DNA of 64,000 bases, taken from Cellulomonas biazotea (lineage in GTDB: Bacteria; Actinomycetota; Actinomycetes; Actinomycetales; Cellulomonadaceae). Of the stretch, positions 251 to 2,901 are shown piece by piece. The notes under the pieces were generated by a model that was not told the DNA's origin, searched no databases, and saw only the letters and a list, made by a program, of their open reading frames with translations. The stretch lies in contig NZ_BIMR01000038.1 in the NCBI RefSeq assembly GCF_004306155.1, positions 1-64,000 of the forward strand. Direction: 5' to 3'. Within the stretch, counting starts at the first letter, position 1; each line of letters starts with the position of its first letter. The translations under genes were made by a program, and so were the position numbers.

Positions 251-1897
251 ATGCCTGCAGCGAAGAAGAAGCCGGCGGACCTCGGCGGCGACGGGATGTT
301 CCCGCCGCACCTCGAGGACCTCCCGGGCGCAGGGGCCCGCGACGCGGGCGAGCGCGTCGAGTACGCGGAGATCCTCCGCTCCATCTGCGGCGCGACCGAC
401 GACTCGCAGGCCGTCGAGCAGTACGACGGCACGCTCGGGGTCACCGTCGCGTTCGTCAACGCCCACGAGCGGCCCGTCGTCCAGGTGCAGTGGAACAACA
501 ACCTGGCGGCGACGTTCACCAACCCCGGCAACGTGAGCGGCGTGCGGTGGGGGACCGGCACGCTCATCGGCCCCGACCTCGTCCTCACCTGCGGTCACCT
601 GTTCGACCCTGACCCCAACGGCTGGACGATCCCGCGCCAGAACGGCACGAGCACACCGCTGTCGCCGCAGCAGGTCGCGACCGCGATGCACGTCAACCTC
701 AACTACCAGGTCGACTCGGGCGGCACGCTCCAGGCCGAGCAGAGCTTCGCGATCACGCAGCTCGTCGAGTACCGGCTCGGCGGCCTCGACATGGCCCTGT
801 TCCGCGTCGCGGGCAACCCCGGCAACACGTTCGGCTGGTCCGAGTTCGGCACGACCAACGCGGCCGTCGGGGACATGCTCGCGATCATCGGGCACCCGGC
901 CGGGCAGCCGAAGCGGGTCGAGGCCGGCCCGGCGACGCAGGTCAGCGGCTCGACGATCCGGTACGCCGACATCGACACGCTCGGCGGGAACTCCGGCTCG
1001 GGCATCCTGCACAGCCCGTCAGGACGGGTCGTCGGCGTGCACACCAACGGCGGCTGCACCGCGACCGGCGGCAGCAACTCGGGCGTCGCGATCGCGGCGA
1101 TCGTCGCGGCCTCGCCGACGCTGCAGGGCCTGACCCCGAGTTCGGCCACCGGGCTGGGTCTCGACCTGGCGACCGCGCTGGCGACCGACGTGACGGGGAC
1201 GTTCCTGTCCGCCGACACCGCGGCGGCGTCCGACACCGGCATCCAGGACCACATCGGCACGCCCATCGCGCAGGACCTCGCGACGAGCCTCGCGGCGGAC
1301 ACCGCCACCCCGAAGATCCAGGACCTCATCGGCACCCCGCTGTCGCAGGACCTCGGCACGACCCTCGTCTCGGACGCGGGCACCCCGAAGGTCCAGGACA
1401 CGATCGGCACGCCTCTCGTGCTCGACCACGGCACGGCCCTCGCGCTCGACGCCGGCACCCCGCGGCTGCAGGACACGATCGGCACCCCGGTCGCGGCCGA
1501 CGCGATGACGCTCCCGACGCACGACTACACGACGACGCTCCAGACCGACACGCACGTCGCGGTCGACGTCGGCACGCCCGTCGCGGTGGACTCGGGCGCG
1601 GCCGACCAGCCGGGCACGGTGACCGCGGCCGACATCGGGATCCTGCAGCCCGGCGGCACGGTCATCAACCCGGTGATCAACCCCGGCCTCACCGGGGGGC
1701 TCGTCGGCGGGCAGCGACCGTTCGTGCAGGCCGGGCCGTACATCTCGCTCGGGCAGGACGACACGGCCGACACCGTCCTGGGCGCGGTGCTCGCCGAGCT
1801 CGAGGCGCTGATCTCGACCCAGACGCAGGTCCTCGCGTCCCTCCAGGCGCTGTACGCGACGCTCGCCGGCGACGCGGGCCTCACGGGCCAGGGCTGA
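251..1897 (+). CDS. Trypsin-like serine protease with C-terminal Thr/Asp-rich 25-residue repeats
   Basis: 548 aa. The protease domain covers about residues 60-290. The apparent triad is His116 (LTCGHLF), Asp180 (GLDMALF) and Ser248 (GGNSGSG), as in V8/trypsin-type peptidases. No signal peptide is visible, so it looks cytoplasmic or leaderless. After about residue 300 the chain changes to four 25-residue repeats (331-430) rich in Thr, Asp and GTP motifs, then a Gly/Pro stretch and a C-terminal amphipathic helix (about 505-535). The ATG has a good ribosome site (GAGGGAG). The stop lies 11 bases before an ATP-grasp ligase gene, so the two are probably co-transcribed. Graspetide-type ATP-grasp enzymes join Thr/Ser hydroxyls to Asp/Glu carboxylates, so the repeat tail could be the ligase substrate. 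That link is inference from composition and adjacency. The protease call is firm. Confidence 0.85.
   Translation: MPAAKKKPADLGGDGMFPPHLEDLPGAGARDAGERVEYAEILRSICGATDDSQAVEQYDGTLGVTVAFVNAHERPVVQVQWNNNLAATFTNPGNVSGVRWGTGTLIGPDLVLTCGHLFDPDPNGWTIPRQNGTSTPLSPQQVATAMHVNLNYQVDSGGTLQAEQSFAITQLVEYRLGGLDMALFRVAGNPGNTFGWSEFGTTNAAVGDMLAIIGHPAGQPKRVEAGPATQVSGSTIRYADIDTLGGNSGSGILHSPSGRVVGVHTNGGCTATGGSNSGVAIAAIVAASPTLQGLTPSSATGLGLDLATALATDVTGTFLSADTAAASDTGIQDHIGTPIAQDLATSLAADTATPKIQDLIGTPLSQDLGTTLVSDAGTPKVQDTIGTPLVLDHGTALALDAGTPRLQDTIGTPVAADAMTLPTHDYTTTLQTDTHVAVDVGTPVAVDSGAADQPGTVTAADIGILQPGGTVINPVINPGLTGGLVGGQRPFVQAGPYISLGQDDTADTVLGAVLAELEALISTQTQVLASLQALYATLAGDAGLTGQG
1241..1540 (+). repeat. Four in-frame 75-bp repeats encoding Thr/Asp-rich 25-residue units
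   Basis: Units start at 1241, 1316, 1391 and 1466, exactly 75 bases apart. Each encodes a consensus like [IVL]QDxIGTP....D.[GA]T.L..D.GTP[KR]; the fourth is degenerate. Acidic and hydroxyl residues recur at fixed positions. They lie in the tail of the protease gene. Confidence 0.9.
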
Positions 1898-1908
1898 CGG
1901 GCGCCGAC

Positions 1909-2901
1909 GTGATCGGCATCGTCTCCCACGCGGGCGACCTGCACACGCAGACCGTGGCCCGGCACCTCGACCTCCGAGGCGCCGGGCACCGGCTGCTCGA
2001 CACGTCGCACGTCCCGACGTCGGCCGCCCTCACGGCGCGCCAGCGTCCTGACGGCACGTGGACCGGCACGTGGTCCGACGCGGACGGCGTGCTCGACCTC
2101 GCGGACGTCCGCGCCGTCTGGTGGCGTCGCCCGCAGCCGTTCGTCCTGCACGACGAGGTGACCCGGCCGCACGACCGCGGCTTCGCGCACGGCGAGTGCG
2201 CCGCGATGGTCGCGGGGCTGTGGTCGTGCATGTCCGCGGAGTGGGTCAACGACCCCGACCGGGACGAGGCGGCGTCGCGCAAGATGTGGCAGCTGCAGCT
2301 CGCGTCCCGCGAGGGCCTGCGGGTGCCGCGCACGTGCATGACGAACGACCCGGAGCAGGCGCGGGCGTTCGTCGCCGCCGAGCCCGCGGGGGTCGTCTAC
2401 AAGTCGTTCTCCGCGACCCCGCGGACGTGGCGCGAGACCCGGCCCGTCCGCGAGGAGGACGTCGGGATGATCGACGCCGTGCGGTTCGCGCCGGTGATCT
2501 TCCAGGAGCTCGTGCCGGGCGGCCGGGACGTGCGCGCGACGGTCGTCGACGGGCAGGTCTTCGCGGCCGAGATCCGCGCGGACCGGTCGGCGTACGAGTT
2601 CGACTTCCGGATCGACACCACGCACGCGCCCATCGCGGAGCACCGGCTGCCCGACGACGTCGAGCGCGGGCTCGTCGCCCTGACGCGGCGGCTCGGGCTG
2701 CGGTACGGCGCCGCCGACTTCCGGGTCGGGCCCGACGGCGAGCACGTGTTCCTCGAGGTGAACCCGGCGGGGCAGTGGCTGTTCGTCGAGCTCGCGACCG
2801 GGCAGCCGATCTCGGCCGCGCTCGCCGACCTGCTGATCCGGCTCGACACCGCCGACGACCGCGTCCCGGACGTCGCCCAGGGCATCGAGGTGCCCGTGTG
2901 A
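1909..2901 (+). CDS. MvdC/MvdD-like ATP-grasp ligase (graspetide-type peptide maturase)
   Basis: 330 aa, GTG start. The N-terminal third resembles the pre-ATP-grasp region of MvdC/MvdD enzymes, including a WWRRP motif around residue 67. The C-terminal two thirds carry ATP-grasp features: a nucleotide-binding Lys (VVYKSFS), [18 protein letters not shown], and the metal-binding [10 protein letters not shown] near the end. Family members make ester or amide cross-links between side chains of a ribosomal precursor peptide. No separate short precursor gene is seen nearby. The immediately upstream protease carries a Thr/Asp-rich repeat tail and is the obvious candidate substrate. The gap to the upstream stop is 11 bases and to gdhA 10 bases. 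A RimK-like or other amino-acid ligase role cannot be excluded. Confidence 0.8.

Follow-up and report, generated by a model that had tools for sequence, protein, structure and literature searches.

In the stretch of Cellulomonas biazotea DNA analyzed here (64,000 nucleotides of contig NZ_BIMR01000038.1; the window), the first 2.9 kb carry two genes on the + strand, with 11 bases between the stop of the first and the start of the second. The upstream gene encodes a serine protease with a long, repetitive C-terminal tail, and the downstream gene encodes a graspetide-type ATP-grasp ligase. We propose, with a probability of roughly 0.85, that the two genes act together as a cassette for chemically stapling an enzyme's tail, and the evidence strongly supports the protease itself as the substrate of the ligase. 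This evidence comprises the anatomy of the tailed protein, a C-terminal module common to unrelated enzyme families, the placement of the accompanying ligases in one clade, the spacing of residues within the tails, and the joint absence of tail and ligase from related loci.

Anatomy of the tailed protease and its ligase

The open reading frame (ORF) at 251-1897 matched Trypsin_2 (PF13365, E 1.4e-16) in Pfam. An AlphaFold2 model was built from a nine-sequence alignment and had a mean predicted local distance difference test (pLDDT) score of 52 and a predicted template modelling (pTM) score of 0.48, with residues 297-511 below a pLDDT of 50. The best Foldseek matches of the folded domain were Esp (6tya, E 1.9e-12) and V8 (1qy6, 6.5e-12), followed by a glutamyl endopeptidase. 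The predicted trypsin-like fold together with the His-Asp-Ser residues places the window protease among the V8-like serine proteases (S1B), and His116, Asp180 and Ser248 presumably act as its catalytic triad, as judged from family membership. The coordinates of all features are collected in the table below.

The original prediction, which was made from the letters of the window alone, had described four 25-residue units in the tail with Thr and Asp at fixed spacing, and both descriptions proved accurate. The four units gave a block score of 2.57, compared to 0.88 +/- 0.07 (maximum 1.03) in 60 composition shuffles; in pairwise comparisons, 10-16 of 25 residues were identical and the underlying DNA was 49-80% identical. 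Beneath the 25-residue periodicity is a finer rule, T-x4-D. Thr occupied exactly position -5 of 19 of the 21 tail Asp residues (residues 293-488), whereas 20,000 shuffles averaged 3.58 and never exceeded 11, and the same arrangement was found for just 2 of 15 Asp in the catalytic domain. The 19 pairs do not overlap and are spaced 6-14 residues apart, mostly 8-9. Chance repeats were ruled out by the block-score and T-x4-D shuffles.

The rule extended to 12 S1-class tails, including that of the distantly trypsin-like L051 (L-numbers denote loci). Near-copies L036, L037, L052, L077 and L107 were excluded from the spacing tests. The Thr-to-Asp offset of +5 was represented by 142 pairs (z 28); repeats and relatives are not independent, so the z-scores of these tests are too generous. 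No other Thr-to-Asp offset from 1 to 10 was enriched, and offsets of 11, 13 and 14 were enriched as the repeats predict. In the reverse direction, Asp to Thr, +5 was not enriched (z -0.6), and enrichment at +1, +3 and +4 (z 4-10) was an echo of the repeats. Among these 12 proteins, 142 of 205 tail Asp fit the rule versus 26 of 233 domain Asp. The Rhodobacteraceae member, L054, had Thr at this position for 14 of 23 Asp despite a quite different sequence.

Also as predicted, the gene 11 bases downstream encodes a graspetide-type ATP-grasp protein, with Pfam matches to ATPgraspMvdD (PF21068, 2.3e-9) and RimK (PF08443). Its top NCBIfam model was TIGR04187 (GRASP_SAV_5884, E 5e-77), at 259 bits and thus below the cut-off of 350. 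The nearest solved relatives were 5ig8 (E 2e-41), AMdnB (7m4s, 2e-38), 5ig9, 9bou, CdnC (7mgv, 2e-28) and 7drm, of which we take 5ig8 and 5ig9 to be the microviridin ligases MdnB and MdnC, and 7drm to be PsnB. Residues K125, K165, D270, E283 and N285 were invariant across six aligned ligase rows and, from the fold, are assumed to have ATP-grasp core roles. By its sequence matches, the window ligase belongs to the graspetide-type ATP-grasp ligases. As a separate matter, an anti-phage defence system was considered and rejected, since PADLOC gave no match for either window protein.

Table. Positions of the tailed protease, its parts and the adjacent ligase in the window
Feature	Position	Strand	Remarks
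Protease-tail protein, 548 aa	251..1897	+	Serine protease of V8/glutamyl-endopeptidase type; repeat tail, motif and helix at the C-terminus
Folded catalytic domain	434..1138	+	About residues 62-296; AlphaFold2, Foldseek
Catalytic residues (predicted role)	His116 596-598; Asp180 788-790; Ser248 992-994	+	Invariant in 9 S1 members
Low-complexity tail	1127..1714	+	Residues 293-488; 21 Asp, 34 Thr
Four consecutive 25-residue units	1241..1540	+	Block score
19 T-x4-D pairs, predicted six-residue macrolactone sites	1148..1633	+	Thr at -5 of Asp; cross-linking inferred
RPFVQAGPY motif, predicted ligase docking site (C-terminal 'follower')	1715..1741	+	Common to unrelated enzymes
C-terminal helix	1775..1873	+	Residues 509-541; AlphaFold2; part of hidden Markov model module
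Graspetide-type ATP-grasp ligase, 330 aa, GTG start	1909..2901	+	MvdD-like pre-ATP-grasp and RimK-like domain

A C-terminal module on unrelated enzymes and the clade of its ligases

The window starts at the first base of the contig, and the upstream neighbourhood is therefore invisible in this genome. Comparison loci came from a pattern-based search of 84,980 species genomes, and the best 80 of 115 were retained. A coding-like upstream frame of at least 300 aa was present in 47 of the 80. Together with the window protein and that of L020, the 49 proteins comprised 21 astacins, 13 S1, four S8 and four M43 proteins and seven unassigned, with classes set by active-site regular expressions and Pfam run on representatives only; Pfam identified two of the unassigned as a tyrosinase (L046) and an S1 protease (L085). 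Ten representatives yielded Astacin, Tyrosinase, Peptidase_S8 (two), Trypsin_2 (two) and Peptidase_M43 matches, just weak Nal1/S7-like matches for L051, and none for L057 and L061. The module-bearing enzymes are mostly 400-660 aa long.

These proteins have a common C-terminal module consisting of a PF-type motif and a helix. Within the nine S1 members, P490 and F491 were invariant, and RPFVQAGPY resembles the RPFG leader motif of ordinary graspetides, apparently displaced to the C-terminus. A regular expression for the motif (forms PF-V-L-A-T-P-H-H or RPFVQAGP, 48-139 residues from the C-terminus), devised post hoc after inspection, matched 42 of the 47 upstream proteins and 27 of 957 background ORFs of that size. 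The five proteins without it were L079 (an astacin with a diverged motif), L086, L092, L101 and L103. It was found in addition in four shorter or fused frames (L041, L061, L063 and L073), and L057, L061 and L073 carry it on proteins with no recognised enzyme domain.

Profile searches of 73 upstream proteins and 5,565 other ORFs (E <= 1) connected the enzyme classes. A profile of 20 astacin C-termini matched all four S8 proteins (5e-5 to 1e-3), two of four M43 proteins, the tyrosinase (4e-6), L063, L057 (0.05) and four S1-class proteins (L054, 3e-7; L051, 9e-6; and weakly L085, 0.04, and L042, 0.5); both of its matches among the 5,565 'background' ORFs came from L022 and L023 and were genuine module proteins. 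A profile of 13 S1 C-termini, the window's included, matched all four S8 proteins, 14 of 21 astacins, two M43 proteins and the tyrosinase. Its seven background matches were true modules in L017, L018, L019, L022, L023 and L041, plus an ORF in L058 (0.006). A profile of S8, M43 and tyrosinase C-termini also matched ORFs in L078 and L070 in which the helix is present and the motif absent. The L078 ORF (1156-2847) is an M28 peptidase (PF04389); like that of L070, it has the helix of the M43 protein of the same locus but not the PF motif.

A maximum-likelihood tree of 101 ligases was built, excluding four ligases shorter than 270 aa and those of L020, L017-L019, L022 and L023. All loci with a PF-type module that were entered fell into one clade of 54 of the 101 sequences (support 91/85, moderate). 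The clade spans Actinomycetota, Pseudomonadota, Acidobacteriota, Planctomycetota, Chloroflexota, Bacteroidota and the haloarchaeon Halorubrum. The original prediction had called a protease of this kind a new or rare arrangement, and 'rare' was too narrow a word, with 54 of the 101 ligases in this clade; that share is no estimate of frequency, because the sample was drawn with queries from the clade. Labels for the upstream enzyme, 'none' included, changed 16 times on the ligase tree, compared to a minimum of 6 and a shuffled mean of 45.

Tail grammar followed the ligase. The 110 residues before the motif exceeded the domain in Asp/Glu content in 38 of 44 proteins and in Thr/Lys content in 41 of 44, and 29 of 44 tails were periodic at p < 0.01. 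Over 505 pairs of different enzymes, tail spacing profiles correlated with ligase identity (rho 0.21), a value reached in 0 of 2,000 runs when tails were permuted within classes (p 0.0005). Donor-acceptor spacing in the tail thus tracks the ligase and not the enzyme. As the catalytic domain is interchangeable, the ligase would appear to read the tail and the docking motif rather than the enzyme.

Neighbouring ORFs of at least 70 aa were clustered, leaving out the near-copies L037, L052, L077 and L107. Of six candidate neighbours run against Pfam, those of L053, L058 and L060 exceeded the YscW (PF09619) cut-off and that of L064 narrowly missed it; no YscW gene was found beside the window pair. 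The blastp component that holds the YscW genes near astacin-locus ligases spans 19 of 45 clustered loci. Pfam gave no match for neighbours in L020, L023, L062 and L078. One locus from a metagenome-assembled genome (MAG), L041, has protease-tail and ligase in a single open frame (3840-5933), which lacks the C-terminal helix of the tail and the first residues of the ligase and may be a natural fusion or an effect of assembly.

Joint presence and absence of tail and ligase

Tailed protease homologues without the ligase were looked for and not found. In a close sample of 58 genomes of the genus and order (G-numbers denote genomes), the tailed protease was present in G000, G008, G013 and G020, which are the genomes with a ligase at least 77% identical to that of the window. 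G044 has a protease domain 37% identical, with no ligase match and no such tail. The window genome (G000) also has a second pair (C151, L020), in which an astacin (PF01400, 3e-49) with a Lys/Asp repeat tail accompanies a ligase 52% identical to the window's, and the astacins of G015 and G028 carry Glu-Thr-Lys repeats. Across the close sample and a sample of 394 genomes of the class, the six astacins with a ligase (G000, G013, G015, G028, G342 and G269) were all tailed, where the G013 ligase lies on another contig and the G269 tail, with a diverged motif, was judged by eye. Three astacins without an adjacent ligase (G008, G052 and G247) had no module. The tail was therefore present in 10 of 10 proteins with the ligase and 0 of 4 without an adjacent one (astacins, 6 versus 3; S1, 4 versus 1).

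The gene that follows the astacin of G008 (L148, 1548-2894) is the one found downstream of the window genome's second pair, and the astacin terminates in a short remnant resembling the ligase C-terminus. It seems that one deletion took the tail and most of the ligase and left the enzyme domain, as the remnant suggests; since tail and ligase parts are adjacent, this is weaker evidence than an independent loss. The G052 astacin (L149, ORF 1617-4490), which has no ligase, ends in a series of DGMGGLV-like repeats, and by eye the next gene looks like a subtilase.

The module profile gave eight matches in the 58 relatives. Seven adjoin a ligase and one lies at a contig end, its likely partner ligase beginning another contig. 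In the 394 class genomes there were three secure matches, all beside a ligase, and four weak ones (L117-L120, E 0.002-0.008). Of 19 class-sample ligase loci, only the two best-scoring (G342 and G269) had a tailed enzyme directly upstream; the remaining 17 had mostly small ORFs there.

No separate precursor had been visible to the original prediction, and this was upheld: ten S1-type pairs were surrounded, within 1.5 kb, by 211 ORFs of 20-120 aa, and none had both a leader-like motif and a core, in a search that was noisy and not strict. The 136 cross-locus matches between small ORFs were judged to be G+C-rich noise because composition correction was off. Two small ORFs (L045 and L054) matched a leader-type regular expression but lacked core-like sequence. 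Small upstream ORFs that looked coding contained a P[FWY][GVA]-type motif at 13 of 44 other loci, a count for which no null was computed.

Proposed stapling and fate of the tail

The window protease has no hydrophobic N-terminal stretch, and one was present in just 1 of 39 module proteins (L057, whose start was probably misread), as assessed by a hydrophobicity threshold on first-start translations. The proteins are therefore likely made, and at first kept, in the cytosol, where adenosine triphosphate (ATP) is available. In our proposal, the newly made protease has no visible signal peptide and bears a long disordered tail, and the C-terminal RPF motif, perhaps together with the helix, serves as the docking site of the ligase. 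The ligase would then use ATP to activate tail Asp side chains and join each to the Thr five residues earlier. The product would hold up to 19 six-residue ester rings, for a mass loss of up to 19 x 18 Da. We infer docking on the motif and esterification of the tail from T-x4-D pairs in donor-first order with RPFV after them. The original suggestion that the protease is its own precursor thus stands as regards the protease as substrate, given the same tail and motif on unrelated enzymes, one ligase clade, spacing that tracks the ligase, and co-absence.

Several observations weigh against this proposal. Support for the ligase clade is moderate, and five clade rows were labelled as having no tailed enzyme. 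L050 starts at a contig edge, L056 retains just the C-terminal helix at its edge, and the frame of L063 is broken but contains the module. True exceptions are L083, with a short ORF containing VPFGL, and L024, which sits on a long branch. The astacin profile missed the window's own C-terminus at E <= 1 as well as two of four M43 proteins, and G269, with its diverged motif, escaped the module profile. T-x4-D pairs were few in L085 (3 of 14 Asp) and L051 (4 of 11 Asp), 15 of 44 tails were not periodic at p < 0.01, and the generosity of the spacing z-scores noted above must be considered. Tail boundaries, the choice of upstream gene and the regular expressions were heuristic and partly post hoc.

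As for the fate of the stapled tail, we lean slightly towards one that stays attached as a rigid, protease-resistant or anchoring extension. Tentatively, and with lower probability, the tail could instead inhibit the protease temporarily in cis, folding back to cause a block that ester hydrolysis or removal of the tail would lift; such inhibition would shield the producing cell from a cytosolic protease. However, a near-identical KFxDD-type core was found in 7 of 7 tails of one ligase subclade and in 1 of 32 elsewhere (post hoc regular expression), and the enzymes of that subclade are three S8, two M43, one tyrosinase and one S1. The presence of this core on different enzymes, the tyrosinase included, argues that it is not tuned to an active site.

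It is doubtful that the protein is a self-processing precursor, in which the protease is both carrier and maturation enzyme and cuts off its stapled tail as free cyclic peptides. Most members are proteases, their catalytic residues are kept in aligned S1 members, and the tail is a multi-core array like those of known repeat graspetides. However, the motif also occurs on the tyrosinase and on proteins without a recognised enzyme, and the module is found on metalloproteases and serine proteases alike. In addition, the helix is kept, the stretch from tail to motif varies, and no conserved cleavage site was apparent by eye. The claim that the protease releases its own tail was therefore not sustained. 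The tyrosinase and the non-enzyme proteins with the motif argue against self-release and active-site inhibition alike as the general purpose.

A calcium-binding tail of RTX type with a C-terminal type I secretion signal, the ligase acting elsewhere, is highly improbable. The enzymes that carry the module are of extracellular type, a hydrophobic N-terminus is nearly absent among them as stated above, and C-terminal modules are present, all of which would suit such export. On the other hand, a Pfam scan of the window protease and ten module proteins detected no RTX family, a Thr at exactly -5 is to our knowledge not an RTX feature, and module and adjacent ligase co-occur with a tail grammar that follows the ligase. 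By eye, no type I export genes were recognised among the listed recurrent neighbours, although they could lie elsewhere. Least probable of all is that the peptidase cuts another cellular protein and the ligase modifies the fragments, the tail being irrelevant, as a survey proposed for ligase branches 7 and 8 after finding no precursors for them (Makarova et al. 2022, PMC8939145), since this leaves unexplained the spacing and the occurrence of motif and donor/acceptor tail on unrelated enzymes, one of them a non-peptidase.

The proposed stapling of enzyme tails and known systems

If the tails are stapled as proposed, peptide-natural-product chemistry extends to enzymes, and a portable tag for protein stapling would be available. 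We consider it fairly probable that a natural system of this kind is widespread, occurring in bacteria and at least one archaeon, and that it builds ladders of side-chain ester or amide rings on the tails of full-length enzymes, read through a C-terminal docking module that evolution has passed among serine proteases, metalloproteases, subtilases and a tyrosinase. Its dedicated function would be to staple proteins, not to make peptide antibiotics, and it would explain why no precursors turned up for the ATP-grasp branches linked to peptidases. What the graspetide ligases next to peptidases act on was left open by a published survey (PMC8939145). Our reading names a substrate, a docking motif, a ring rule and an expected mass change, so that the question reduces to a single co-expression experiment.

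The predicted chemistry has precedents. Graspetide donors are typically N-terminal to acceptors, and for an engineered protein modified by ThfB the authors proposed a six-residue ring from Ser to Asp18 (PMC12291112). RPFG was indicated as the key motif for recognition by ThfB, and a leader relocated to the C-terminus still directed modification (PMC13003496). In the open-access literature, examined as titles and abstract openings, no paper names a peptidase as the ligase's substrate; subscription papers lay outside this search, and priority is uncertain. Graspetide surveys of 2020-2021 exist among the subscription papers.

L026, L027, L028 and L142 form a separate ligase lineage outside the clade, with a truncated partner ligase. 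The upstream protein is a Nal1-like protease in L026-L028 and has no Pfam match in L142 (only L026 and L142 were scanned); all have Lys/Asp- or Lys/Glu-rich tails and a C-terminal motif PELRPDL..SA (DQRPDL in L028). This lineage may be a second system of the same logic with another C-terminal motif, possibly branch 8 of PMC8939145. In a Vampirovibrio MAG, a plesiocin-like precursor with TTxxxxEE repeats (L104, 4200-4925) adjoins a ligase that falls in the same group as those of L026-L028.

Compared to the graspetides microviridin, plesiocin and fuscimiditide, the present pair has a homologous ligase, donors before acceptors, an RPF-like motif and, as in some of them, tandem cores. It differs in that the apparent substrate is a full-size enzyme with the motif C-terminal to the core, rather than a short peptide with an N-terminal leader, and in the predicted T-x4-D ladder of up to 19 rings per protein. 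In borosins and BURP-domain peptide cyclases, the core and the modifying enzyme are fused in one polypeptide; here, too, core and enzyme share a chain, but the fused enzyme is unrelated and the modifier is separate.

The present clade is probably branch 7 of PMC8939145, given unrelated peptidases, no precursor, and YscW in three of six scanned neighbours. According to that survey, branches 7 and 8 consist mostly of loci that encode peptidases from several unrelated families and for which no precursor could be predicted; a YscW homologue is often present in branch 7, as in some loci here. The survey has the peptidases making substrates from other proteins, whereas here the peptidase carries the core. 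Graspetide group 32 (PMC13097080) likewise has diverse neighbouring protease families, which were suggested there to be maturation or resistance genes and are read here as substrates; its identity with the present group is uncertain. A counterpart to the docking arrangement proposed here is the engineered C-terminal ThfA leader (PMC13003496), in which a C-terminal recognition sequence also guides the ligase. That arrangement is artificial and the present one apparently natural, and if our reading is correct, nature already uses a recognition sequence of the recently engineered kind.

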